Shown here in pieces: positions 2,163-22,752 of a stretch of 22,752 bases of DNA. Made by a program: the position numbers and the translations under genes. The DNA comes from a virus. The stretch covers positions 1 to 22,752 of the IMG/VR virus record IMGVR_UViG_3300013131_000258; one strand, given 5' to 3'. Numbering within the stretch: position 1 is the first letter of the stretch; each line of letters starts with the position of its first letter. A model generated the notes under the pieces. That model did no database searches. It was not told the origin of the DNA and worked only from the letters and a program-made list of their open reading frames with translations.

Positions 2163-3388
2163 TGCCAGTTGGTGATATAGTAGTAAATAAAATGAATATA
2201 GGTTCTCTTAATCTTCTAAGAAGAGATGAATGCCAATATGTTGGTTTTAATATCTATGAAGATTTATTTAATCCATACGGACCTACTGCAGAAATAAAAG
2301 TTAATGATTTTACAGATTGTTTAGGAAGATACAATTTGAATGGCAAGGAAAAAATAGAAATAGATTTTTCTCTTTACGAAGGAAAAGAAAGAGTAAAATT
2401 TGATTTAATGTCTTATGAAAATTCTGATTTAGACGATAGATCTAAAATTAAAAGTGGTGCAATGAAGTCAAAGACATATATAATTAAATGTGTTTCCCCG
2501 GAATATTTGAACGTTCAATCTAAAAGCAATATACAAAAAAGTTATAATTTAGAAATACATAAAATTATAGAAGATTTAGTAAAAAATACAGGATTTTCTT
2601 CTAAAAAACAATTTATTAATGATGATCCTACAAAAGGAAAAATAAGACATATAGCTACTGGACATCCATTAAATATATATCAACAACTTAATAATAGAGC
2701 AGTTTCTTTAAGAAATAAATCGTCAGCTTATGTATTGTATGTATCAGATAATAAGTATATGTACAGAACAATTGAACAATGTTGTAAAGATCCTGAAGTC
2801 TTGACTTTAAGCCAAAGTACAACATTAGGAGCAGGAGCTTCAGAACAACAAAAACAAAATTCTATTACTAGTATTTTAGTAGGATCTTCGTTTTTTAGTC
2901 CTCCAAGATATAAAATAGACACTCAAATGAGAACATATGACACAGTAACAGGAAAAGCTAATTATCCAAGAATTAAACCAAATTCTCAATATACACATTT
3001 AGGAAATCCTGTATATAAAGAAAGTGGTTCAGAAACATCTTTTCCATTATTTTCTCAAGCGGCATATACTCAACATGATAGAGTAAATAATAAAACTTCA
3101 ACAGATGTAGCTTCGGCTAGACAAAATAGATCAGCATATCTAGGTTATTTTGCACAAAATCATGCAGATTTAGTAGTTATTGGAAATCCTAAAATAAAAT
3201 TAGGAAATATTATAAGAATTAATATTCCTAATAAATCAACAGATTCTAATTTATATGAATCACAATTTAGTGGTCCTGTATTAATAACACAAATAAGGCA
3301 TATTATTAATCCTATAGGACAAGTACCTAGGTATCAAATGGTTCTAAGAGTAACAAAAGCAGGTGGGTACGATAGAGGTGGAGAATGA
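2162..3388 (+). CDS. Baseplate hub ring protein (gp27/VgrG-N-like)
   Basis: A 408-residue protein with the organisation of gp27/VgrG hub domains. Seen: an N-terminal beta-rich part (VNDFTDCLGRYNLNGKEKIEI, about 46-66, in two adjoining pieces) of the pattern strand-turn-'GxExI', then KTYIIKCVSPEYLN (about 106-119), a helical IHKIIEDLVKNTGF segment (about 138-151), a helix-plus-strand segment with AYVLYVSDNKYMYRTI (about 193-208), and a long C-terminal beta region ending in ITQIRHIINPIGQVPRYQM. In T4, a gp27 trimer forms the torus that seats gp5 and adapts threefold to sixfold symmetry. The next gene is a gp5-type OB-fold protein overlapping it by ATGA, which supports this role. T4 gp27 is 391 residues. 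Assignment rests on fold pattern and position, not strong sequence identity. Confidence 0.72.
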   Translation: MPVGDIVVNKMNIGSLNLLRRDECQYVGFNIYEDLFNPYGPTAEIKVNDFTDCLGRYNLNGKEKIEIDFSLYEGKERVKFDLMSYENSDLDDRSKIKSGAMKSKTYIIKCVSPEYLNVQSKSNIQKSYNLEIHKIIEDLVKNTGFSSKKQFINDDPTKGKIRHIATGHPLNIYQQLNNRAVSLRNKSSAYVLYVSDNKYMYRTIEQCCKDPEVLTLSQSTTLGAGASEQQKQNSITSILVGSSFFSPPRYKIDTQMRTYDTVTGKANYPRIKPNSQYTHLGNPVYKESGSETSFPLFSQAAYTQHDRVNNKTSTDVASARQNRSAYLGYFAQNHADLVVIGNPKIKLGNIIRINIPNKSTDSNLYESQFSGPVLITQIRHIINPIGQVPRYQMVLRVTKAGGYDRGGE

Positions 3389-3852
3389 TATATTGGGCAG
3401 AAATAAGAAATATAGAAGATGATCCTTCTAAAAGTGGAAGGGTAAAGTTAAGATTTTATCCACAATATGGATTAGATTATAGCGATGAACAAAATATCAA
3501 AGATGACGATTTGCCTTGGGCTATGCCTTTAATGCCAATAACTTCTGCTTCTACAAATAAAGCAGGAGTAATACCTACTGGGTTACAAGTAGGATCTAGA
3601 GTAGCAGTAATGTTTGCTGCAGAAGATACAGAAAAACAATATCCTATTGTATTAGGTTCGTTTTTTAGAGCATATCCTCCAATAGTTAATGAACAACAAT
3701 CAGATTCAAATAAAGATGGATTTGATTCAGTAGATCAAGATCAAAAAGGTGTAGATTTACCTTCTAACGCTCGATCTATAGAAGATAATATTGGTAGAAA
3801 TCCTTTAAATCCAAGAATAACACCTAATGATATTGAAACAGAAAGTGTATAA
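3385..3852 (+). CDS. 5: Free-standing gp5 N-terminal OB-fold protein (hub)
   Basis: A 155-residue protein matching only the first domain of T4 gp5 and VgrG. Seen: YWAEIRNIEDDPSKSGRVKLR (1-21, in two adjoining pieces) with the typical 'V-ND-P-K-GRVKVR' OB-fold pattern, LPWAMPLMPI (about 49-58), VGSRVAVMFAAED (about 75-87) and YPIVLGSFF (about 92-100). In full gp5 this domain is followed by lysozyme and a beta-helix; here the chain ends after a polar, Asn/Pro/Asp-rich tail (about 105-155). The beta-helix is in a separate gene two genes downstream. The start is supported by GGTGGAG just upstream; it overlaps the hub gene by four bases (ATGA). It should bind the hub ring and the spike. Confidence 0.75.
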   Translation: MIYWAEIRNIEDDPSKSGRVKLRFYPQYGLDYSDEQNIKDDDLPWAMPLMPITSASTNKAGVIPTGLQVGSRVAVMFAAEDTEKQYPIVLGSFFRAYPPIVNEQQSDSNKDGFDSVDQDQKGVDLPSNARSIEDNIGRNPLNPRITPNDIETESV

Positions 3853-5051
3853 TGAGTACGAAAAAAGCAACTCCTTCTAATTCAAAATATAATAAAAAGA
3901 AATATATTAAGAATACAACTGGCGAAAAAGCTATAGAAGTTGCACGTAAAAAATATGCAAAACATAGAGATAAGCCAACATTAGCAGCTGCTAATGTATT
4001 ATTATCTTTACCAGAAGCATTGAGAGAAGTTGATCCTAATAATATTTCGCAAGTATTACCTCATATGTATAGAAAATTTATGATGGTAAGAAATTTATTA
4101 AGAAGTTTTAATTCAAAAAATAACAGTGCATCCTCACCAGCTGCTTATACAAAAAATTCTATTACTAATGTTTTTACTGGTGCTCTTTGTATTTTAATAA
4201 AAGAACATTCGTTTGATACTGTTATGTTTAGATTATTTACTGTTTTAGGTAATAATAATTATTACAAACTATCAACCGAATATCAAGAAATAGTATTTGA
4301 ATCTATAATAGAAGTTATAAAAAAAGAAAATGAGTATGGTAAAACTAATATACCTGTATCCGTTATACCAGAAATAGTATATAGTTCTTCTATTCCTCCT
4401 ATATTATTTAATTCGTATCAAGAAGTCCCGGATTATTATGTACAACAATATTATACTAAAGAATTAGATCCTTATCCTGGATATATACATTATATGGATG
4501 ATAATGATATTTCTTGTTATATACGCAGATTATCTATAGATTATCCTTTTGAATCTGCAGAACAAGAAATATATACTCTATCAGAATTTGCTTTAGCTTA
4601 TGAATTAAATAAATATATAAAAAACAATAATCTTACTGTAGAAATATTGTCTGCATTATTAATTTTTTATTGCACAAAAATACAAGATGATTTATTTGAA
4701 AAAACTAATGGAAAAAACAGTAAAAATAATCTTTTATCAATGTTATCACAATTTGCTGGTATTGCTGGTGTTATGGTAGATTTAACAGAAGGCAATCATT
4801 TACCCGAATCAGTATTAAATATTGCTTCTGTTGCTGCAACGATTCAACAGCATAAATTGAATATAGGAAAAATTAAAAGACTAAAATCTATAACAAATTC
4901 TGCGTTTTTACCTTTACAATTGTTAAATAGAGGATCTATATTAAGCTTATTATCTTCAACATTAGGAGTATCTAATATAGTATATACAGCCGCTAAAATT
5001 GAAAATTTAATATCTTCTATAAAGAATGAATTAATCAATGACAAAGTATAA
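3852..5051 (+). CDS. Unrecognised helical protein between OB and spike genes
   Basis: A 399-residue protein I do not recognise. It opens with a basic, Lys/Asn-rich tail (1-40), continues with AAANVLLSLPEALREVD and a run of amphipathic helices, a central Tyr/Pro-rich part (about 170-215, with several Tyr-Tyr pairs), then Gly/Ala/Ser/Leu-rich helical stretches (about 290-390) including FAGIAGVMVDL and LLSSTLGVSNIVYTAAK. The latter are moderately hydrophobic but broken by charges, so I do not call membrane segments. Its place inside a divided gp5 hub, coupled by TAATG before and a 14-base overlap after, suggests a baseplate hub component or hub assembly factor (roles held in T4 by gp26, gp28, gp29 and gp51). 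No lysozyme motif was found. Function is open. Confidence 0.7.
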   Translation: MSTKKATPSNSKYNKKKYIKNTTGEKAIEVARKKYAKHRDKPTLAAANVLLSLPEALREVDPNNISQVLPHMYRKFMMVRNLLRSFNSKNNSASSPAAYTKNSITNVFTGALCILIKEHSFDTVMFRLFTVLGNNNYYKLSTEYQEIVFESIIEVIKKENEYGKTNIPVSVIPEIVYSSSIPPILFNSYQEVPDYYVQQYYTKELDPYPGYIHYMDDNDISCYIRRLSIDYPFESAEQEIYTLSEFALAYELNKYIKNNNLTVEILSALLIFYCTKIQDDLFEKTNGKNSKNNLLSMLSQFAGIAGVMVDLTEGNHLPESVLNIASVAATIQQHKLNIGKIKRLKSITNSAFLPLQLLNRGSILSLLSSTLGVSNIVYTAAKIENLISSIKNELINDKV

Positions 5052-5841
5052 TAAAAAATTAGAAGAAGCACCATATGAGGTAGGAAGATCTAATCCAAAA
5101 TATCCTTGGATTAGAGGAGAATCTGATATATTGGGTGCAACAACAACAATATATGCTGATCCTGATAATTATAAAGAATCTTTTACTGAGAAATTTAATC
5201 ATGATGCTTCATTTCAAATAAATGAAACCGCTGATGAAGATAAAAAGGGATTAACTAATTCGTTAAATCATGAAGTTAGACAATATTCTTCAGGAGGACA
5301 TTCTTTAACTACAGACGGGCATCAAGATAATGCAAGTTTAGAAGGAAAAGGCTCTTTAAGAGAAAATTTTGCTGGTGATAGAGGTTCTTCTGCTAAAGGA
5401 AACATATATTCAGGTGCAGGAGAATCTAATGTTAATGGTTCGGATGCTGGACAATATAACGCTGATAATGGTGATACATACACGACTACTACTGGCAATA
5501 GAATAAGTGAGCATACGGGTAATACTGCTACACATTTTGAAGGCGATTTAACTCAATCTGTTACTGGAAATAAAATATCTATGATAGATGGAGAAATAGG
5601 ATTACATGTTCAGGGTGGGAACATGGATATTCAAGTGGAAACAGGCAGATTTAGAGTAAAATCTGGAGCTAAATTATTAATAGAATCAGTAACAGAGATA
5701 GAAATAAAGGTTGGTTCTTCTATAATAAATATAACATCTAGTGGTATAACAATAAATTCTAGTGGTGATATAGTAACACAAGGTAGTGCAACCAAGGTAC
5801 AAGGTGGTGGTATTGTAGCTCCTCCTACAACGTTTATTTAA
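5038..5841 (+). CDS. 5: Central spike, gp5 C-terminal beta-helix-like protein
   Basis: A 267-residue protein that looks like the needle part of gp5/VgrG. The N-terminal 40 residues (with YPWIRGESDILGATT) resemble the segment that leads into phage spikes. Residues about 75-190 are Gly/Asn/Asp/Ser/Thr-rich short repeats such as GNRISEHTGN and TGNKISMIDGEIG. The C-terminal part has alternating strands (IEIKVGSSIINITSSGITI, about 217-235) typical of the VgrG/gp5 triple-stranded beta-helix, and it ends in a Gly/Pro-rich tip (VQGGGIVAPPTTFI). A trimeric membrane-piercing needle is inferred. There is no lysozyme domain and no PAAR-like tip motif. The gene starts inside the end of the preceding one, with only a weak ribosome binding site, suggesting translational coupling. 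Confidence 0.75.
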   Translation: MTKYNKKLEEAPYEVGRSNPKYPWIRGESDILGATTTIYADPDNYKESFTEKFNHDASFQINETADEDKKGLTNSLNHEVRQYSSGGHSLTTDGHQDNASLEGKGSLRENFAGDRGSSAKGNIYSGAGESNVNGSDAGQYNADNGDTYTTTTGNRISEHTGNTATHFEGDLTQSVTGNKISMIDGEIGLHVQGGNMDIQVETGRFRVKSGAKLLIESVTEIEIKVGSSIINITSSGITINSSGDIVTQGSATKVQGGGIVAPPTTFI

Positions 5842-5855
5842 GAGAAGAAAATTAT

Positions 5856-6179
5856 ATGAAAGAATATTTCAAAAAATTAATGTTAGAATTTATCACTAAC
5901 GATAAAGGAGAGCCGGTATATCCAAAACCAGAAAAACCTTCACAAACAATACATGATATAGCTACTAAACATGGATATTTTACGTCTCCAACTAAAAATG
6001 TAGGTAATTGGGTTATATACACTAGAAAAGATTCTAATATGCATTATGACATACATCATAATATTGATAATGGAAAATGGGGGCATCAATCATATAATAA
6101 TGTATATATGTCTGCCCCGCAATCAGGATCTAAACCAGAAGAATTAGACGGATATTTAGAAAGTATACATAATCCATAA
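5856..6179 (+). CDS. Small unknown protein, paralogue of the one after gp25
   Basis: A 107-residue protein of unknown function. It begins with a short amphipathic segment (MKEYFKKLMLEF), then IHDIATKHGY (about 32-41), an inferred set of strands including WVIYTRKD, a His-rich part (MHYDIHHNIDNGKWGHQ, about 59-75), and a last helix PEELDGYLESI (about 94-104). The pattern IHxIAxxxGY ... H ... GxWxH ... PEELxxYL is shared with the 90-residue protein at 6625-6897, so the two genes are paralogues on either side of gp25. The order helix-strands-helix with a His-containing strand recalls the small HicA-like fold, but I see no secure match. AGAGAAG about 10 bases before the ATG is a plausible ribosome binding site. 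Confidence 0.65.
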   Translation: MKEYFKKLMLEFITNDKGEPVYPKPEKPSQTIHDIATKHGYFTSPTKNVGNWVIYTRKDSNMHYDIHHNIDNGKWGHQSYNNVYMSAPQSGSKPEELDGYLESIHNP

Positions 6180-6625
6180 TGCCAACGAGAGCAGACTCAT
6201 TTACCGCATTAAAGAGAAACCAGGAATTTTTCTCCGATTTCTTAAATAATTTTGATAAAACACCTATTGGGAATCAATTAGGTAGAGTTACTAATATACA
6301 AGCAGTTACTCAATCTCTTAAAAATCTCATTAAAACTAATTTAGGAGAAAGATTATTTGATCCAGTAGTTGGTGGTAATGTATATGCTTCATTATTTGAA
6401 TTAAATACTCCTTTGATAAAAAGTAATTTAGAATTTTACATAGAAAATACTATAAGACTTAATGAACCAAGAGTAAATTTAATTTCTGTTGAGGTATTAA
6501 CTTCTTTAGATTTAACCCAAGGTATATATGTAGAAGAAAATACTTTGTTAATAAAAATAACATTTAATCTAATAAATAATTCAGAAGTACAAACAGTTAA
6601 TTTCGTATTAAAGAGAATCCGTTAA
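6179..6625 (+). CDS. 25: gp25 baseplate wedge subunit
   Basis: A 148-residue member of the gp25/lysozyme-like wedge family (T4 gp25, P2 W, type VI TssE). In T4, gp25 sits at the wedge core with gp6 and gp53 and nucleates the sheath; the family name reflects early ideas, not a proven muramidase activity. Seen: a family-typical N-terminus, IQAVTQSLKNLIKTN (about 40-54), a GERLFDPVVGGNVY segment (about 57-70), and the signature NEPRV (about 95-99) before strands of the wedge core. Length fits (T4 gp25 is 132). The gene is joined by TAATG to a small unknown gene on each side. Confidence 0.9.
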   Translation: MPTRADSFTALKRNQEFFSDFLNNFDKTPIGNQLGRVTNIQAVTQSLKNLIKTNLGERLFDPVVGGNVYASLFELNTPLIKSNLEFYIENTIRLNEPRVNLISVEVLTSLDLTQGIYVEENTLLIKITFNLINNSEVQTVNFVLKRIR

Positions 6626-6897
6626 TGAGTTTAAATTTAATAAAAAGAATAATTAAAGAACAATCTCTTAGTATTCATCATATAGCTAAGCAATATGGTT
6701 ATAGAGATTATGAACTTGATAATGAAGGTAATGTTTTATACACTAATATTAAAACAGGACAAAAAATAATGCATTCTAGGTATGGTGGTTGGAAACACGG
6801 AAATTTAGATTTTAGAATGAATATGTTTAATACTAAAAAACACGGAACTACTCCTGAAGAATTAATAAAGTATCTAGGATCACCAGAGCATGGCTAA
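6625..6897 (+). CDS. Small unknown protein, paralogue of the one before gp25
   Basis: A 90-residue protein of unknown function. It has a short leader (LIKRIIKEQ, 5-13), then SIHHIAKQYGY (about 16-26), LDNEGNVLYTN and a strand with KIMHSRYGGWKHG (about 47-59), and a final helix PEELIKYLGSP (about 77-87). These blocks align in order with the 107-residue protein at 5856-6179. The leader contains I-K-E followed by Gln at 10-13, which fits the (L/I)xE cleavage rule of the T4 prohead protease; that use is speculative. It overlaps gp6 by eight bases. AAGAGA lies just before its ATG. Confidence 0.65.
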   Translation: MSLNLIKRIIKEQSLSIHHIAKQYGYRDYELDNEGNVLYTNIKTGQKIMHSRYGGWKHGNLDFRMNMFNTKKHGTTPEELIKYLGSPEHG

Positions 6898-13116: not shown

Positions 13117-16100
13117 ATGGCATTAGATAAAAACCTAAATGTACCTCCATACAATATAGATTATGACGCTAATAATAGATATCATGCTCTATTATTTAGA
13201 CCACATACGGCTGTTCAAGCAAGAGAACTATCAGAAATAGAGTTTATTCTTCAAGATCAAATTAGAAGATTAGGCGAACATATGTTTAAAGACGGCACTG
13301 TTATCGAAGGTGTCGGTATTATATATCACCCTAATACTCATTATATTTCTTTAGAAGATTATTTTAACATAGATGCAAATGCTTTTGTTACAGATTATAA
13401 TTCTTCTTATTTAATCACTAATTCTACAGATTCTAATAATGCTGTAAGAGCTGTAATGAAAATTGGTAAAAATGGTGTTAAAGCTGCATATCCGGAAACT
13501 AACAGAATTTACTTTGATTATATAACAACAGGTACAGATGGTTCTGGAGAAGATGTTAACGTATTTTCACCAGGAGATATTTTATATTTTTACAGTAATA
13601 CACAAAATAAGTTTGGTGATCTTGATGCTAATAATTTAGTAAATAGCATTAATACGTTATCATCAAACGTAGTTTTTAATTCTAATGGATATGCGTATTT
13701 AATAGGATGTACTGATGGTATAGTATACCAAAAGGGATATTTTATAAAAGTACCAAAACATGTAATAACTGTAAGAGATTTTTCTACTAATGTTTCTGGT
13801 TATGTAGTAGGATTTGAAACTACAGAAGAAATAATAGACGAATATGCTGATCCTAATTTATATGATAATGCATTAGGATATTCTAACGAAAATGCTCCAG
13901 GTGCGCATAGATTAAAACTTACTCCAGAATTAGTTGCTAAATCACGCACAGACACATCAAATAATATCAACTTCTTTTCTATTGTAGAATTTGATGGTGA
14001 TAAACCAACAGAACAAAAAGAAAATACAGAATATAATAAAATATTAGACCAATTTGCTGTTAGAACATATGAAGAATCTGGTGATTATGTTACCAAACCT
14101 TTTCAAATTGAAACTAGAGTAAATGAAGCAAATTCACAATCATTCTTTTATGAAATTTCTTCTGGTATAGGATATGTTAGAGGGCATAGAATTGAAAAAA
14201 TTAATTCTACTAGGGTAGAAGCAGATAAAGGTATAACTACAGAATATGCACAAAATCAAATAATTACAGGAAATTATGGTAATTATGTTATATGTAGTGA
14301 ATTTTTGGGTGCTTTTGATTTTGAAACTTTATCTCAAGTAACATTATACGATCAACCACAATATGCTATTACTGATAAAGAAGGCGCAGCATTAGGTAAT
14401 CCTATAGGAAATGCAGTAGGTACAGCTTCTGTTCGTGCTATAGTATTTTATAATGGTACAAAAGGGTTATCTTCATCACAATATCTAGTATATTTGACTG
14501 ATATTAGAATGAATGCGGATAAATCTTTTAATACTGATGTTAAGTCTTTATATGCTTCTCATGCTACATATGGTAAAGCAAAAGCAGATATTGTATTAGA
14601 AAGCGGATTAGCTGTATTAAAATCGTCAGGAAGTAATAAATTAATCTTTAATACTGCACTAACAGCTATAAAAAGATTAACAGATAATACTGGAATTGGC
14701 GACACATTATATGTATATGATCAAATAAAACCTTCTACAATAAATTCTAATGGAGCAGTAACTGTAACATTACGTACTGCTGCTCCTGGTTCTGCAGAAG
14801 AAAAATTAACTTCAACCACAGGTTCTGTATTAATTGGTTCACAATTAAACGATTACAATATTATATTATCAACTAATGCTTATTCTGCCAATTTGACAGG
14901 AAATATAGCATTTTCTAATAGTAGCAATATAACTATAACAGGAACAGGAACACTATTTACTACAGAATTGGTTGCTAATAATCTTGTTAGAATAACTGCT
15001 AATTCTACTCAAACTTATATAAGAAGAGTTACAGGTATTACTAATTCTACATCATTAACTATAGATAGCCCTATAAATGATGCGGCTGGTAATACTTCTA
15101 CTAAAATACAAAGATTTTATATAGACGGAACAGTATTGTCTATTGCTAATGTTACAATAAATTCTAATACGTCTTTTACTTCACAATTAGGTGTAACATT
15201 AGATTCAGGTACACAAAACGTATATTGTTCTTTCCCTGTGTATAGAAATCAAGCAAGTGCTATAAGTAAAGTTATTAACAAAAACAGATATGTAAAAATA
15301 GATTGTTCAAACAATGTGGCTAATACAGTTGGTCCTTGGGATTTAGGTTTAGTAGATGTACATAAAATAAGACATGTATATGTTGGAACAACATATGCCA
15401 ACACTAATTCTGACAGAAGTAATTGGTTTGAATTATATACAGGACAATCAGACGACAAATATTCACATTCTAAATTAGTTATTAAACCTACATATAGATC
15501 ACAAATAACAAGTTCAACAAAAATGTTGATTGAACTTGATCATTTTACTGCTAATACATCATATTCTGTTGGTTTCTTTTCTGTGGAATCTTATCCAATA
15601 GATGATACCAATACTTCTAATACTAATGCTATACAAACTATAGAAATTCCAGTATATAACGGTGTTGAATTAAGAAATGTGATAGATTATAGACCTAGAT
15701 ATAATAATTCTGCGAATAATTCTACTACTGAAGCAGGAGCTACTATTAATCCAGTAGTTAATACTACATTTTCAGTATCTGGTTCTGGACAATATGTAAT
15801 CTCGCCGGACACAAACTTTATAGCAGATTTTGAATATTATTTGCCTAGATATGATTTAATTACATTAGACCCTTATGGTAATTTTAAAGTACAACAAGGA
15901 AATCCTGCTGTAAATCCTGTGTCTCCGTTTTTTGAAAATGATCAAAGTTTAATTGCTGAATGTTATGTTCCTCCGTATCCTACACCAACAGTAAGAGAAC
16001 AAGAAACATATAATACTAATTCTAAAACATTATTAAAAATTAAATCAAACAAACGTTATACAATGAAAGATATAGCTTCGTTGGAAAAACGTATTAAGAA

Positions 16101-17577
16101 AATAGAATACTATACAGTATTAAATTCTTTAGAGCAACAAGCTAAAGATTTAACAATTCCTGATTCTAATGGGTTGGACAGATTTAAGAATGGTATATTT
16201 GCTGATCCATTTAATTCTCACAATTTAGGAAATGTTTCAGATTTTGAATATAAGATTGCAGTAGATCCTACAGAAACTGTAATAAGACCATTTATCGTTA
16301 GAAATGATATAGATATGATGTATTCAAATACATTATCTAGTAATGTTGTAATAACTGGTCCATATGTTACATTAAGCTATACTGATGAATTATATATAAA
16401 TCAAAATATGGCAACTAAATTCCGTAACTGTGCAGAAGCAGTATGGCAATGGAATGGTAAAGTTTCTTTATATCCTTCTTATGATTTTCATAGAGATGAA
16501 GATACAGCACCAAATGTTAATGTTGATATAGATTTAGTTTCTCCATGGGAACAATTTGCTAATTCTCCTTGGGGTTCTCGTTGGGGAGATTGGAGAACTG
16601 TATCTTCAGATGCTATTCGTGATTGGTCAGAAACTTGGACAAATATAACAGAAGGTATTAATGCTGGAGCTAGTGTTCTAACTAATATAGAAACTATAAC
16701 AGCTACAAATACACAAGAAAGAACTTCTCAAGGATTAGTTGTAGATGTTAATTCGCAAACTATTGATTTAGGTTCTTATGTTAAAGATGTAGCATTACAA
16801 CCTTATATGGCTTCTAGATTAGTATCTTTCGTTGCGTATAATATGAAACCTAATACTACATTGCACGCATTTTTTGATGCTGTTAATGTAGATATATATT
16901 GTGCACCTGGTACATATAATGGAAATAATACTCCATATGATTATGCACAATCTATAGAAGATAATGTAGTTTCTAGAACTGGTAATTTTGGTGATGCTTT
17001 AGTATCTGATGCTAATGGGTTTGTTTCTGGAGTATTTTTAATTCCTGCTGAAACTTTTAGAACAGGAGATAGAATATTCCAATTAACTAATGTAGACGAT
17101 TTAGTAACTGGTGCAGACGCAAGATTAACATTAGGGAAAACTACATATACCGCAGATTCTTTATCTGTTACTCGTACTTCTACAACTATTAACGTAAGAC
17201 AACCAGAAATTACTGTTCAAGACAGAACAGAAAGAAGAACTTCTACAACAACATCAGAAAATATTTCACAAGCTTTATTTTGGCCGCAATGGGATGATCC
17301 TATAGCACAATCCTTTACTGTTGTTAATATACCTCAAGAAGGTTCTGGTCTATTTTTAAGTAAAGTAGGTGTGTTTTTTAAATCTAAAGATGAAAATTTA
17401 GGTGTGTCTTTATATATTTGTGAAATGGAAAATAGCACTCCTAATGAAAATATAATAATAGGAAAATCGTATAAAAAAGCTGCTGATATAACTGTTTCTT
17501 CTACAAGCAGCGCAGAAACAGAATTTACGTTGGATTTTCCAGTATATTTGATGGCAATAAAGATTATGCATTTATAG
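13117..17577 (+). CDS. Giant DUF4815-type virion protein, N-terminal part (frameshifted)
   Basis: A 1486-codon frame that is the first two thirds of a giant tail/baseplate protein found next to gp8 in marine T4-like phages. Seen: YDANNRYHALLFRPHTAVQA (14-33) followed by RELSEIEFILQDQIRRLGEH, the DUF4815 opening; YVRGHRIEKI (about 355); a beta module at about 592-668 also present in the gp7-position protein; and the conserved coiled-coil block YTMKDIASLEKRIKKIEYYT (about 980-1000) then GLDRFKNGIFADPF (about 1020-1034). Near 1430 starts a domain (VGVFFKSKDENLGVSLYICE) that continues in the -1 frame from about 17550. In this frame the last residues after VYL (from 17551) are out-of-frame read-through to a stop at 17577. 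AGGTG lies 12 bases before the ATG. It is probably a peripheral baseplate or fibre-like protein; exact role unknown. Confidence 0.8.
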   Translation: MALDKNLNVPPYNIDYDANNRYHALLFRPHTAVQARELSEIEFILQDQIRRLGEHMFKDGTVIEGVGIIYHPNTHYISLEDYFNIDANAFVTDYNSSYLITNSTDSNNAVRAVMKIGKNGVKAAYPETNRIYFDYITTGTDGSGEDVNVFSPGDILYFYSNTQNKFGDLDANNLVNSINTLSSNVVFNSNGYAYLIGCTDGIVYQKGYFIKVPKHVITVRDFSTNVSGYVVGFETTEEIIDEYADPNLYDNALGYSNENAPGAHRLKLTPELVAKSRTDTSNNINFFSIVEFDGDKPTEQKENTEYNKILDQFAVRTYEESGDYVTKPFQIETRVNEANSQSFFYEISSGIGYVRGHRIEKINSTRVEADKGITTEYAQNQIITGNYGNYVICSEFLGAFDFETLSQVTLYDQPQYAITDKEGAALGNPIGNAVGTASVRAIVFYNGTKGLSSSQYLVYLTDIRMNADKSFNTDVKSLYASHATYGKAKADIVLESGLAVLKSSGSNKLIFNTALTAIKRLTDNTGIGDTLYVYDQIKPSTINSNGAVTVTLRTAAPGSAEEKLTSTTGSVLIGSQLNDYNIILSTNAYSANLTGNIAFSNSSNITITGTGTLFTTELVANNLVRITANSTQTYIRRVTGITNSTSLTIDSPINDAAGNTSTKIQRFYIDGTVLSIANVTINSNTSFTSQLGVTLDSGTQNVYCSFPVYRNQASAISKVINKNRYVKIDCSNNVANTVGPWDLGLVDVHKIRHVYVGTTYANTNSDRSNWFELYTGQSDDKYSHSKLVIKPTYRSQITSSTKMLIELDHFTANTSYSVGFFSVESYPIDDTNTSNTNAIQTIEIPVYNGVELRNVIDYRPRYNNSANNSTTEAGATINPVVNTTFSVSGSGQYVISPDTNFIADFEYYLPRYDLITLDPYGNFKVQQGNPAVNPVSPFFENDQSLIAECYVPPYPTPTVREQETYNTNSKTLLKIKSNKRYTMKDIASLEKRIKKIEYYTVLNSLEQQAKDLTIPDSNGLDRFKNGIFADPFNSHNLGNVSDFEYKIAVDPTETVIRPFIVRNDIDMMYSNTLSSNVVITGPYVTLSYTDELYINQNMATKFRNCAEAVWQWNGKVSLYPSYDFHRDEDTAPNVNVDIDLVSPWEQFANSPWGSRWGDWRTVSSDAIRDWSETWTNITEGINAGASVLTNIETITATNTQERTSQGLVVDVNSQTIDLGSYVKDVALQPYMASRLVSFVAYNMKPNTTLHAFFDAVNVDIYCAPGTYNGNNTPYDYAQSIEDNVVSRTGNFGDALVSDANGFVSGVFLIPAETFRTGDRIFQLTNVDDLVTGADARLTLGKTTYTADSLSVTRTSTTINVRQPEITVQDRTERRTSTTTSENISQALFWPQWDDPIAQSFTVVNIPQEGSGLFLSKVGVFFKSKDENLGVSLYICEMENSTPNENIIIGKSYKKAADITVSSTSSAETEFTLDFPVYLMAIKIMHL

Positions 17578-19628
17578 TACAACCTGATGGTAATAGCCCA
17601 GAATATACAATTTGGGTTGGAGAAACAGGTGGGTTCGATGTTTTAACCAATCAACAAGTATATTCTAATCCATACTCAGGAACAGCCTTTATTTCTTCTA
17701 ATAGAAAAACATGGACTCCAATACAAAAAGAAGATCTTAAATTTAAGTTGTATAGAGCTAAATTTAATAGTTCAGGTGGTTATGCAGGATTCACTAACGA
17801 AAATGATGAATTTTTAACTGTGTCTGGATTTACTAAAGCTAATTCTAATATATCTATAGCAGTAGGAGATATTGTATATAGAGCTAATACATCTGCAAAT
17901 ACAGCTAATTTAACAAGTATTGTAAGCAATACATTAATATCTAATTCAACAAATAATCTACCAAAAGGAAGAATACAATATTTTAACGAAGAAACCGGAG
18001 AAGTATGGTTAGATTCTTCAGCAAATGGTGGATTTAGTAATTCAGATATTATAGCAGTTTATAGACCAAATAATGTTACTATAGCTAATTCTACTGTTAT
18101 TAATGCTAATACATTAATAGCCTGGACTACAATTACAACAGTTGATAATAAATCGTATCATATAGTTGTACCTAAATTTGGAATTATGCAACCTTCTGGT
18201 ACTTCTATTAATTACGAATACAAAGGTGTGTCTAATACAAATGTAGCAGATAGTAATTATCAAATTGTTCAGAATAATATGGAATTAGAATATATTGACA
18301 AAGAACGTCATATTATGTCTAAATCTAATGAAGTGGCAAGTTTGAGTTCTGCAAAATCTGGTACATATAAGATATCATTTGCTACGGTAAACGATTATGT
18401 TTCTCCTGTGATAAATCTATCACAAAAAACATCATTGTTTATAGAAAATCAAATAAACAATGATACTCTTAATGAACATACTAGATATGGTAATTCTTCT
18501 ACAAAATATATATCTAAAAAAATAATTTTAGAAGACGATCAAGATGCAGAAGATGTAAAAATGTTATTTTCTGCTTATAGACCATCTGGTACTGATATTA
18601 AAGCATATATTAAAATAAAAAATGCTCAAGATTTTGAAGATTTTAATGATAAAAATTGGACAGAATTAGAATATATAGACGATGGTGATGAAGTATATTC
18701 TTCTTCGTCTAATAAAAAAGATTTTAGAGAATATGAATTAGGATTTTCTATTACTAGAAAAGTTTATTTTGTTGCAAATAATAATTCGTTGCAAGTAGGA
18801 GAAACTATTACACAATCAAGTTCTATAGGAACTGTAGTATTTAGAAGTGGTAATAATGTTACTGTTGATATGGAAAGCGGATTATTATCTTCTGGAGCAG
18901 CAACAGGGTCTTCTACAGGATCTATTAATATAGTATCAATAAACACAAAATCTGCGTTTTCTAATTCAGGAGTAGATATATACGAAGCTCTTCCTGGTGG
19001 TGTTGAAATAGGTTCTAGTAATGTAGTAATTGTTGGAAAAAATCACACATTTAATGCTAATACAGGAATAAATAATGCTGCAGATGTAATTACAATAACT
19101 AATGCAAATACATATTTTAGTGTTGGTGATGCTATTATGTATCACGTATCAACAGGAAATACCGCTGTTTCTGGTTTAACTTCTAATACTAAGTATTATG
19201 TATCGTTTGCAAATACTACAGGATTAGCGTTAGCATCAACAAGAACAGGTGCTAATATTAATATAACTGCTTCTTCTATTTCTGAAACAGGACATACTTT
19301 AATTGGATCGTTCTTTAATGAAACTTTTGATGTTGGAGATAGAATAAGAATACAAGAAGCTAGTGGCACATTTTCTATAAAAACTATTACATCAATATCA
19401 AACAATACATATTTAACTATAGATACAGGAACAGAATTTACTAATACTGCTTCATTGTTTTATGTATTTAAACCTACTACTGCTGATGGAGTTGTAGAAT
19501 ATTATGATTCTACTGGTACTAGATATCAAGGATATAAAGAATTTGCTATTAAATTGGTATTATTATCTTCAAATCCTGTCTTAGTACCTAAAATAGATGA
19601 TGTTAGAGGAATAGCATTACAGGTATAA
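17550..19628 (+). pseudogene. Giant DUF4815-type virion protein, C-terminal part (other side of frameshift)
   Basis: A 692-residue continuation of the preceding gene in the -1 frame. From 17550 it reads DGNKDYAFIVQPDGNSPEY and continues without a stop through YTIWVGETGG, NPYSGTAFISSNRKTW and EDLKFKLYRAKFN. This matches what family members carry directly after 'F-TPVYL'. Read alone, the first usable start would be TTG at 17748, in the middle of this conserved domain and without a ribosome binding site, so independent translation is unlikely. Further on are a VVPKFGIMQPSGT segment, YHVSTGNTAVSGLTSNTKYY with NTTGLALAS (a common module in marine phage fibres), and GTEFTNTASLFYVF. The joined protein would be about 2170 residues. 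It could be a sequencing or assembly error, a real mutation, or recoding. Confidence 0.7.
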
Positions 19629-20498: not shown

Positions 20499-20795
20499 AT
20501 GTCTTTACAATTTTCTACTACTTTAAGAAATAATGTTTTGGATCAATTTGAAACTACAATTTCAACTGCTCCATTATTAACAATTTGGACTGGTGGACCA
20601 CCAGCAACTTGTGCTACTGCTAATTCTGGATCTTTATTAGCCACATTAACACTTCCTTCTGATTGGATGGCTGCTGCTAGCGGTGGTTCTAAAGCTAAGA
20701 GTGGTACTTGGTCTAATACAGCAACTGGAACAGGAACAGCAGGACACTTTAGAATTTTTGATTCTGCTGGATCAACTTTGTCATTTCCAAGGTAA
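20499..20795 (+). CDS. Small phage tail-associated protein, N-terminal part (frameshifted)
   Basis: The first 98 codons of a small phage protein of a widespread family, often seen in tail regions of unrelated tailed phages. Seen: LQFSTTLRNNVLDQFETTI (3-21), a WTGGPPATCATANSGSLLAT stretch (about 30-49), LPSDWMAAASGGSKAKSGTW (about 53-72) and GHFRIFDSAGST (about 83-94). The frame then departs after Ser-Thr and stops at 20795, while the family pattern continues one base on. The family is usually about 130 residues. The biochemical role is not known; a beta-sandwich decoration or adhesin-like role is inferred from context. TAGGAGA (20488-20494) is the best ribosome binding site in the window. Confidence 0.7.
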   Translation: MSLQFSTTLRNNVLDQFETTISTAPLLTIWTGGPPATCATANSGSLLATLTLPSDWMAAASGGSKAKSGTWSNTATGTGTAGHFRIFDSAGSTLSFPR

Positions 20796-20904
20796 TGTAA
20801 GCACAACAAGCTCTGGTTGGGATATGGAATTAGATAATACTTCTATTAATACTGGGCAATCTGTTACTGTTACTACGTTTACAATAACTGCTCCTGGAGC
20901 GTAA
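20779..20904 (+). pseudogene. Small phage tail-associated protein, C-terminal part (+1 frame)
   Basis: From TGT at 20779 the +1 frame reads CHFQGNVSTTSSGWDMELDN and then TSINTGQSVTVTTFTITA to the stop at 20904. This is the expected continuation of the preceding protein: family members have 'DS-GTTCHIQG ... GDM-LDNTSI--GQ-VT-T-F'. Joined to the upstream part it gives about 135 residues, the normal family length. Removing one T from the TTT at 20777-20779 restores a single frame. There is no separate start codon with a ribosome binding site for this part. Confidence 0.6.
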
Positions 20905-21759
20905 ATGTTATTTGGAAGTCCTTGGGGTTGGAGTAGAATGTCTAGTAATTTGCCTTTGTATGCAAATACAGGTACTCCAACGAACAATTATGGAACAAAT
21001 TTTACAATAAACGCTAATAGTACCAAAGGTACAACAGTATCTTTAATTGCCAATTTACAACATGATGTTCATTATTTGACTATAGGTATCAATGGAACTG
21101 GGTTGTCTACTGCTGATTGTAACGCATTAATTGATATAATGGTTGATCCAGCAGGAGGTACTTCTTGGTCTAATGGGTTTATTGATAACTTATGTGCAGG
21201 ATCTGTTGTTACTTCCATAGCATCTAATCCAAGTTTTCAATGGTATCATTTTCCAATTTGGATAAAATCAGGTACATCTTTAGGTATAAGAGGTCAAACT
21301 AGACACACGGCTAATTTGACTACAGTTAGAGCAATATTAGTAGTATATGGAGAACCTAGTCGCCCAGAAATGTGGTGGTGTGGTCAAAAAGTAGAGACAA
21401 TAGGAGCAAATACGGCTGCTTCTAAAGGTATTAATATTACACCAGGAAATTCTTCTGCATGGGGAAATTGGGCTAATGCTACTGCTTCTTCGTATAATTA
21501 TGGTGCGGTTCAATTTGGATTAAATGCAACAGATTCATCTACGACTGCAGTAAATTATTTTTTTCAATTTGGGATAGACAACTTACAATTACCTGGTTCT
21601 CAAACATATTATGGTGGCGGATCAACAGCCGAATTAATGGGTAAAAATGCAACCACTATTATTCCTTGCAATACACCTGCAAATACAGTATTTCAATGCA
21701 GAGGTACTGCTAGTGGTACAGCAGAGATACATAATTATTGTGTATACGGAGTTTATTAA
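20905..21759 (+). CDS. Putative distal tail protein with two related beta domains
   Basis: A 284-residue protein that usually follows the preceding family in phage tail cassettes; the biochemical function is not known to me. It seems to hold two related beta-rich domains. The first (about 30-130) includes VHYLTIGINGTGLSTADCNA and FPIWIKSGTSLGIRGQ; the second (about 145-284) includes YGAVQFGLNATDSSTTAVNY and a final FQCRGTASGTAEIHNYCVYG. Both run 'GxN ... xFPxx ... RGx ... VYG'. A Trp-rich linker with SRPEMWWCG lies between them. It starts directly after the previous stop, with TGGAG eight bases upstream. A virion surface or receptor-contact role is inferred. Confidence 0.65.
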   Translation: MLFGSPWGWSRMSSNLPLYANTGTPTNNYGTNFTINANSTKGTTVSLIANLQHDVHYLTIGINGTGLSTADCNALIDIMVDPAGGTSWSNGFIDNLCAGSVVTSIASNPSFQWYHFPIWIKSGTSLGIRGQTRHTANLTTVRAILVVYGEPSRPEMWWCGQKVETIGANTAASKGINITPGNSSAWGNWANATASSYNYGAVQFGLNATDSSTTAVNYFFQFGIDNLQLPGSQTYYGGGSTAELMGKNATTIIPCNTPANTVFQCRGTASGTAEIHNYCVYGVY

Positions 21760-22107
21760 TTGGCAATTTCAGAAGCATATTCAGGAACAATAACTGCTAA
21801 TACTACTGAATGGTCTTTAACAACCAATACAGCAGGACCAGATACTGATACTAATGATGGGGTATATCAAGCATTTATAGATTTTAATAATTCCGCTGGT
21901 AGTGATGTTTTTGAATATAAAGTATATGAGAAAGTAATATCTTCAGGAACACAACGAGCAGTATATTCTGCCAGAATAGCGGGATCTCAATCAGGACCTA
22001 TTTGGGCGTCTCCTTCTTTAATATTATTACATGGTTGGGATATGACCATTAAAAAAATAACTGGTACAGATAGATCTATAGATTGGTCAATTAGAAAAGT
22101 AGCGTAA
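21760..22107 (+). CDS. Small tail-associated protein with conserved WASPSLILLHGWDM block
   Basis: A 115-residue protein of a family common in tail regions of tailed phages. Seen: EAYSGTITANTTEWSLTT at the start, DGVYQAFIDFNNSAGSDVFE (about 33-52), YKVYEKV, and the very conserved IWASPSLILLHGWDMTIKK (about 80-98) followed by GTDRSIDWSIRKVA at the end. The start is TTG: it follows the previous stop directly, CGGAG lies about 9 bases upstream, and no ATG is available nearby in frame. It is predicted all-beta. It belongs with its two upstream neighbours as one cassette. Confidence 0.7.
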   Translation: MAISEAYSGTITANTTEWSLTTNTAGPDTDTNDGVYQAFIDFNNSAGSDVFEYKVYEKVISSGTQRAVYSARIAGSQSGPIWASPSLILLHGWDMTIKKITGTDRSIDWSIRKVA

Positions 22108-22108
22108 A

Positions 22109-22752
22109 ATGTGGCCATTTCAGCCGTTATTAGAAAGTACTGCTCAATTACAAGGCGATACTTCTTCTAACGGAACTCTTAGTAAATCAATTGGTAATTT
22201 TAATTCTTCTATAACAGGTACTGTATCTGTATCTGCATCTACATCCAAATCAATAGGTACATTTACTGAATCTATTAATGGTACTGTATTAATTTCAGCA
22301 TCTACATCAAAATCAATAGGTACATTTACTGAATCAATAGAAGGTACTATTACTGATCCTGCAGTATCTGGTTCTCTTAATAAATCAATTGGCGAGTTTT
22401 CAGAATCTATTGATGGTGATGTATTAGTTTTAGCATCAACATCCAAATCAATAGGAACGTTTGCTGAAACTATTGATGGTGACGTATTAGTATCTGGTTC
22501 TCTTAATAAATCAATCGGTGAATTTGTTGAATCTATTGATGGTGATGTATCAATATCTGGATCTGTTAATAAATCAATTGGCACATTTACTGAGTCTATA
22601 GATGGTGATGTATCAATTTCAGCATCAACATCCAAATCAATTGGTGAGTTTACCGAATCAATCGATGGTACAATATTAGTATCTGGTTTTGTTAATAAAT
22701 CAATCGGTGAATTTACTGAGTCAATTGATGGTGATGTATTAATATCAGGAAC
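22109..22752 (+). CDS. Tandem-repeat tail protein (partial, runs off the right edge)
   Basis: An open frame starting at ATG 22109, one base after the previous stop, and still open at the window end (214 full codons). A 20-residue head (MWPFQPLLESTAQLQGDTSS) is followed by at least nine copies of a 21-residue unit of consensus S(A/G)S(T/L)(S/N)KSIGxFxESIDGDVxI. The KSIG motif begins at residues 26, 47, 68, 92, 113, 134, 155, 176 and 197; one unit is three residues longer (ITDPAV). Strand-turn repeats with conserved Gly and Ile fit a solenoid or trimeric beta-shaft. Its position after the small tail protein cassette suggests a fibre or adhesin. No homology can be claimed from the repeat alone, and the C-terminal domain is outside the window. 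Confidence 0.75.
   Translation, partial: MWPFQPLLESTAQLQGDTSSNGTLSKSIGNFNSSITGTVSVSASTSKSIGTFTESINGTVLISASTSKSIGTFTESIEGTITDPAVSGSLNKSIGEFSESIDGDVLVLASTSKSIGTFAETIDGDVLVSGSLNKSIGEFVESIDGDVSISGSVNKSIGTFTESIDGDVSISASTSKSIGEFTESIDGTILVSGFVNKSIGEFTESIDGDVLISG
22169..22752 (+). repeat. 63-bp in-frame tandem repeat array
   Basis: Nine and a part copies of a 63-bp unit, in frame within the last gene; the third copy is 72 bp. Two unit types mix: one encoding (S/L)ASTSKSIG (copies 2, 3, 5, 8) and one encoding SG(S/F)(L/V)NKSIG (copies 4, 6, 7, 9). Third-position differences between copies show these are diverged repeats, not an assembly loop, although near-identical blocks such as tctcttaataaatcaat recur. 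Confidence 0.85.

Follow-up and report, generated by a model that had tools for sequence, protein, structure and literature searches.

The stretch of DNA analysed here (the window) is a whole IMG/VR record of 22,752 bases, and its last open reading frame (ORF; 22109–22750, plus strand) is built of short in-frame tandem repeats. We read this gene, at a probability of roughly 0.6, as an N-terminally anchored, modular β-repeat virion appendage, most likely in a host-contacting structure; recombination would drive the turnover of its length and unit sequence. Copy-number change in fibre genes is already known; what appears to be new is a repeat gene that occupies a shared position and has a shared start peptide while its units are unrelated.

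Genomic setting of the repeat gene

The upstream genes of the window form a T4-like baseplate and tail block, which encodes the tail tube cap, wedge and hub subunits and related proteins. The repeat gene closes this block, directly after the baseplate wedge and tail genes, and reaches the contig edge with no stop. Its nearest neighbours lie on the same plus strand. The gene at 20499–20904 encodes a virion structural protein that is weakly gp80-like (PHROG phrog_3758, E = 6e-21; Pfam Gp80, E = 0.03; PDB 44nx_B, E = 1.4e-5) and whose PHROG class is ‘head and packaging.’ It is followed by a gene for a protein of 284 residues (20905–21759), and then by a gene for a protein of 115 residues that begins with TTG (21760–22107) and is conserved immediately ahead of the repeat gene in relatives from IMG/VR and genome_contigs (alignments A1 and A3). 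The 284-residue protein is likewise kept in relatives (alignment A2). Profile searches of the PDB with the 115-residue and 284-residue alignments returned nothing significant, and PHROGs gave one weak match for each.

Several reading frames elsewhere in the contig appear to be interrupted. The gp80-like gene has an apparent frameshift near 20780, and its end in another frame (ORF 20683–20904) is similar to that of the homologue in locus L003 (4664–5146). The ORFs at 13117–17577 and 17748–19628 match consecutive parts of phrog_358 (profile positions 1–1504 and 1710–2018), and this gene is apparently split by a frameshift or stop near 17577. The two apparent frameshifts may be sequencing errors. 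The hub/tail-lysozyme (gp5-like) gene also seems to be divided, with its front part at 3385–3852, its rear part at 5038–5841 and a 399-residue ORF that has no match between them. Among the baseplate genes, the small ORFs at 5856–6179 and 6625–6897 look like distant copies of one another, as both start with H..A..HGY/QYGY and end with PEEL.[GK]YL.

The repeat array

Nine KSIG anchors recur in frame along the gene, spaced by 21, 21, 24, 21, 21, 21, 21 and 21 residues, with the lone 24-residue step caused by a 9-nt insertion that adds the residues DPA (22355–22363). Copies 1–3 occupy 22166–22354 and copies 4–9 occupy 22364–22741, each of 63 bp, and the beginning of a tenth copy (22742–22752) is severed where the record stops. 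The array starts behind a 19-residue non-repeat N terminus. Self-identity at an offset of 21 residues is 0.56, as compared with a maximum of 0.19 in 2000 shuffles over all periods from 10 to 39, and Tandem Repeats Finder recovers the array independently with periods of 63, 126 and 189 bp. Two unit types can be distinguished, AST-S (type A) and G[SF][LV]N (type B), which follow one another as A A B A B B A B in copies 2–9, so that copies 2 and 3 are both of type A and copies 4–9 run B A B B A B. Copy 1 is weaker, with 42–57% amino-acid identity to the other copies. The nine in-frame units and the intermixed order of their types, both claimed in an earlier sequence-only reading, are thus borne out, with one step of 24 residues.

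The units share 47–88% nucleotide identity, and pN/pS among them is 0.51–0.53 in the coding frame, the lowest value of the six frames. This indicates that the protein sequence is constrained and that the units are more than recent duplicates. The array contains every one of the four pairings of unit type (A or B) with the residue before F (T or E), and since the T/E difference needs two base changes, this points to exchange between units. The repeated internal duplication or exchange suggested earlier is supported by the same four combinations.

On the minus strand, the frame at 22144–22752 is likewise open across the whole array, which is explained by the 63-bp period. We rejected it as a gene, because the sense frame is favoured by its start, its conserved N terminus and its lower pN/pS.

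The array stops at the contig edge with no visible 3′ end, and two other genes of the contig carry apparent frameshifts, as might be expected if it were a decaying or misassembled gene without function. However, its frame is open across nine copies, the units are under purifying selection, the start region is conserved, and equivalent intact genes with stops are found in many relatives. We consider such decay or misassembly very improbable, although the part of the gene past the contig edge may hold an error or a break.

A repeat gene behind a conserved partner gene

A search of IMG/VR with the window’s own unit gave 18 pattern hits and no relative confirmed by tblastn, and the only match to this unit was in Caulobacter phage Seuss, at 27% identity. 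Relatives were therefore gathered through the 115-residue neighbour gene, which has 121 confirmed relatives in IMG/VR (80 of them kept) and two loci in genome_contigs, and which as query yielded 68 distinct phage loci. Queries with a 626-residue neighbour (0 relatives) and with the 284-residue protein (1 relative) likewise revealed no phage very close to that of the window.

With this single search protein, a tandem-repeat gene was found next after the 115-residue gene in 52 of the 68 distinct loci, as opposed to 1 of 140 upstream control ORFs, where ‘repeat’ denotes a z of at least 6, a threshold that we set ourselves, and the control ORFs were picked mechanically. In L090, the repeat gene chosen is 2.4 kb downstream. 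The sole control ORF with repeats is a 463-residue upstream ORF (L035, 1565–2953), whose repeats recur roughly every 22 residues (z 8.1). The distance from the 115-residue gene to the repeat gene is 1 nt in the window and −4 to +15 nt in most relatives, with gene starts chosen by script and some offsets set by hand, and in some relatives one small gene sits between the two.

Of the 52 repeat genes, 49 have a period of 20, 21, 22 or 23 residues, two have one of 16 and the remaining gene has one of 14. Consensus units vary by locus, and examples include TGVSATGQVGSVTV, GSLxVTEEGDTLASTGTL, TWAEFEVP and ALLANDLQSLSQ. The longest repeat genes encode 1,777 and 1,909 residues (L100 and L101). Long arrays may be misjudged by short-read assemblies, and several contigs, the window’s included, end within the array. 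Behind their 22-residue units, the genes of L100 and L101 end in a second, shorter and Trp-rich repeat (NWQxVDDSQTPxW).

The window gene shares all three features of this module, namely the position after the 115-residue gene, the N-terminal signature described below and units of 21 residues. Its unit similarity to other loci is weak (best z 3.4), and at this level we do not claim common descent of the units across loci. In a few loci the neighbour of the 115-residue gene has no repeats, so the repeats do not appear to be essential to the module. The window’s baseplate gene had no match in nine related records, in a search run without a positive control, which fits a shared module rather than a shared virion type.

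The N-terminal signature

Genes at this position recurrently start with MSWxFQPLLPxxAQLQ(AGG), the window version being MWPFQPLLESTAQLQ. The putative anchor segment of the window gene (22109–22165, plus strand) comprises the 19 residues MWPFQPLLESTAQLQGDTS, and its assignment draws on the enrichment of the motif A[QDE][LQI][QL], which falls within residues 6–24 in 43 of the 69 genes that occupy this position and in 83 of the 4012 ATG ORFs that served as background. It also draws on occurrences of the signature apart from repeats. In four loci, L013 (9346–9462), L064, L067 and L076, a 38-residue ORF consists of the signature alone with no repeat, whereas in L058, L066, L034 and L036 the signature sits on a non-repeat body. 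Signatures without repeats or with other bodies are as expected for an anchor with an exchangeable body.

Copy-number change among relatives

The number of units differs among close relatives whose ends are well conserved. Three loci with 21-residue units have 5, 6 and 7 copies (L080, L055 and L071, respectively), and here the gap falls within the array while the C-terminal part has hardly changed. Similarly, two loci with 22-residue units have four and five copies (L054 and L047), and L089 has about one copy as compared with five in L078. L047 and L049 have the same number of units, with one unit replaced. Identical arrays were recovered from separate metagenome datasets (L080/L083 and L055/L056), which argues against assembly error. 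A copy number constant in all relatives, which would have spoken against the earlier suggestion that copy number can change, was looked for, and 5, 6 or 7 units were found instead. For the relatives, the suggestion is thereby upheld by whole-unit differences. Repeat genes with different unit families (those of L055, L071, L080, L062, L078 and L089) have in common a long charged C-terminal segment that ends in LEIxDIIDEMxSRALLxAxGIAA.

Predicted folds

At the Pfam cut-off the window protein matches no family, and none of its PHROG matches is convincing. AlphaFold2, run on the single sequence, predicts stacked β-coils that form a monomeric β-solenoid (pTM 0.68), with a pLDDT of about 85–90 across much of the C-terminal half and low confidence in the N-terminal half. 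The best structural neighbour of the model is a β-helical antifreeze domain (3p4g; Z 15.6, 192 residues, r.m.s.d. 3.1). A viral fold library returns the Seuss protein at a probability of 0.99 with a weak E-value of 0.029, and there are weak fold matches to CsgA. AlphaFold2 predicts confident solenoids even for random perfect repeats (PMC11795689), and the solenoid model carries limited weight on account of this bias.

The units themselves show an alternating β-pattern with Gly/Asp turns, and in some relatives the C terminus is formed by a long heptad-like segment with the potential to oligomerise. These features would suit the trimeric tail-fibre shaft proposed in the sequence-only reading, in which three chains intertwine and each 21-residue unit makes one strand-turn-strand step; many phage fibres are trimers. 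However, the sole model is a single-chain solenoid (itself of limited weight; PMC11795689), its best structural neighbours are monomeric β-helices such as 3p4g, and no solved trimeric shaft was found by sequence search. We judge a trimeric shaft unlikely.

If the solenoid is an artefact of AlphaFold2, the repeats might instead act as a flexible, mostly disordered spacer that separates the anchor from a C-terminal tip. Its preference for solenoids in random repeats (PMC11795689) would be consistent with this, as would the low confidence in the N-terminal half of the model and a copy number that is free to vary. On the other hand, the units are imperfect (47–88% nucleotide identity) and under purifying selection (pN/pS about 0.5), and they have a regular hydrophobic/β-pattern. 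Furthermore, unrelated units keep a near-equal length of 20–23 residues, which a fixed structural period would demand. A disordered spacer seems to us quite improbable.

The 284-residue partner is predicted to consist of two β-sandwich (jelly-roll-like) domains (AlphaFold2 pLDDT 86, pTM 0.86). Minor tail and tail-fibre proteins are among the viral folds that it matches, and its similarity to solved structures is middling (best Z 8.6).

Possible location in the virion and proposed mechanism

Judging from its genomic setting, it is plausible that the appendage is part of the virion or tail. The module’s neighbours in other phages include portal, terminase and head genes, and fibre genes too. The module adjoins portal or terminase genes in L003, L004, L013 and L024, and precedes a tail-fibre gene in L009. 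Given the portal, terminase and head neighbours, the appendage could belong to the head or neck just as well as to the tail. Specifically, the module could sit on the capsid or portal vertex and bear a head or neck decoration fibre in place of a tail fibre, as those four loci and the PHROG class of the gp80-like gene would suggest. That location is harder to reconcile with the window, where the module comes directly after the baseplate wedge and tail genes, and with its place ahead of the tail-fibre gene in L009, and we regard it as doubtful.

For the favoured anchored β-repeat appendage, we infer N-terminal docking, a β-solenoid or fibre fold, and an effect on reach or host contact. The first ~19 residues (WxFQPLL...AQLQ) would serve as a docking peptide onto a shared four-gene module made up of the gp80-like protein, the 284-residue double jelly-roll, the 115-residue protein and the repeat protein. 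The body behind the anchor would be composed of ~21-residue β-strand/turn units, each adding a fixed length. Unequal recombination between units would add, remove or swap them, leading to changes in length and a fast turnover of unit sequence during which the anchor and, in relatives, the C-terminal ends would be retained. New unit variants would presumably spread by recombination between units.

Comparison with known repeat systems

The closest counterpart to the window gene is CPT_Seuss39 (AKU43565.1) of Caulobacter phage Seuss, which likewise has 21-residue tandem repeats (27% identity, 3e-16), a gp80-like gene upstream in the same block, and the same predicted fold. It differs in its unit (SIAASLxKTMxxMxxxI), in being complete at about 268 residues and in that the N-terminal signature is not evident. 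The gene that comes directly after it is annotated ‘tail protein.’

Tandem repeats of BACON domains in crAss-like phages are tail-associated and grow by internal duplication and exchange (PMC6949934). Each BACON unit is itself a folded domain that binds carbohydrate and belongs to a Pfam family, whereas the module described here has units of 16–23 residues that belong to no family and are unrelated between phages; Pfam finds no BACON domain in the window protein. In-frame duplications in fibre genes also alter copy number in Xanthomonas phages OP1, Xp10 and Xop411 (PMC2248197) and in Enterococcus phage EfV12-phi1 (PMC6365445), where they are tied to host range or host coevolution. In these phages, however, large segments (parts of a ~118-residue region, or 1.8 kb) are duplicated in otherwise ordinary fibres, which have no short-unit array or shared anchor peptide.

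The β-solenoid repeats of filamentous haemagglutinin and curlin (PF05594 and PF07012) resemble the module in their β-repeats of about 20 residues, but the module is made of phage genes with no secretion apparatus context. The window unit has no Pfam match to PF05594, and PF07012 is not among its Pfam matches. The unit of one relative (L004) lies above the Pfam cut-off for PF05594, although no single stretch passes alone. The module and its signature have no family in Pfam or PHROGs, and the open-access papers searched describe no short-unit repeat gene that combines a near-fixed period and a shared start peptide with unrelated units.

Implications

Phage fibres whose repeat number varies have been described individually. 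In at least 52 distinct loci, a repeat gene lies behind shared partner genes, with a recurrent start peptide and unrelated units that measure 20–23 residues in 49 of them. The analysis flags three gene families, those of the 115-residue, 284-residue and repeat proteins, that are unnamed by PHROGs, Pfam and PDB sequence search. Fibre length change, the birth of repeats and anchor-based exchange become testable by counting units in relatives. A broader interpretation, which we advance tentatively and with more doubt than conviction, is that this is a widespread virion module common to tailed phages that are not related to one another. In it, a conserved short docking peptide would display a rapidly changing repeat rod, and new unit sequences would repeatedly arise and spread through the array in different lineages. 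If so, the module would make the length and surface of the appendage an evolvable, countable trait.
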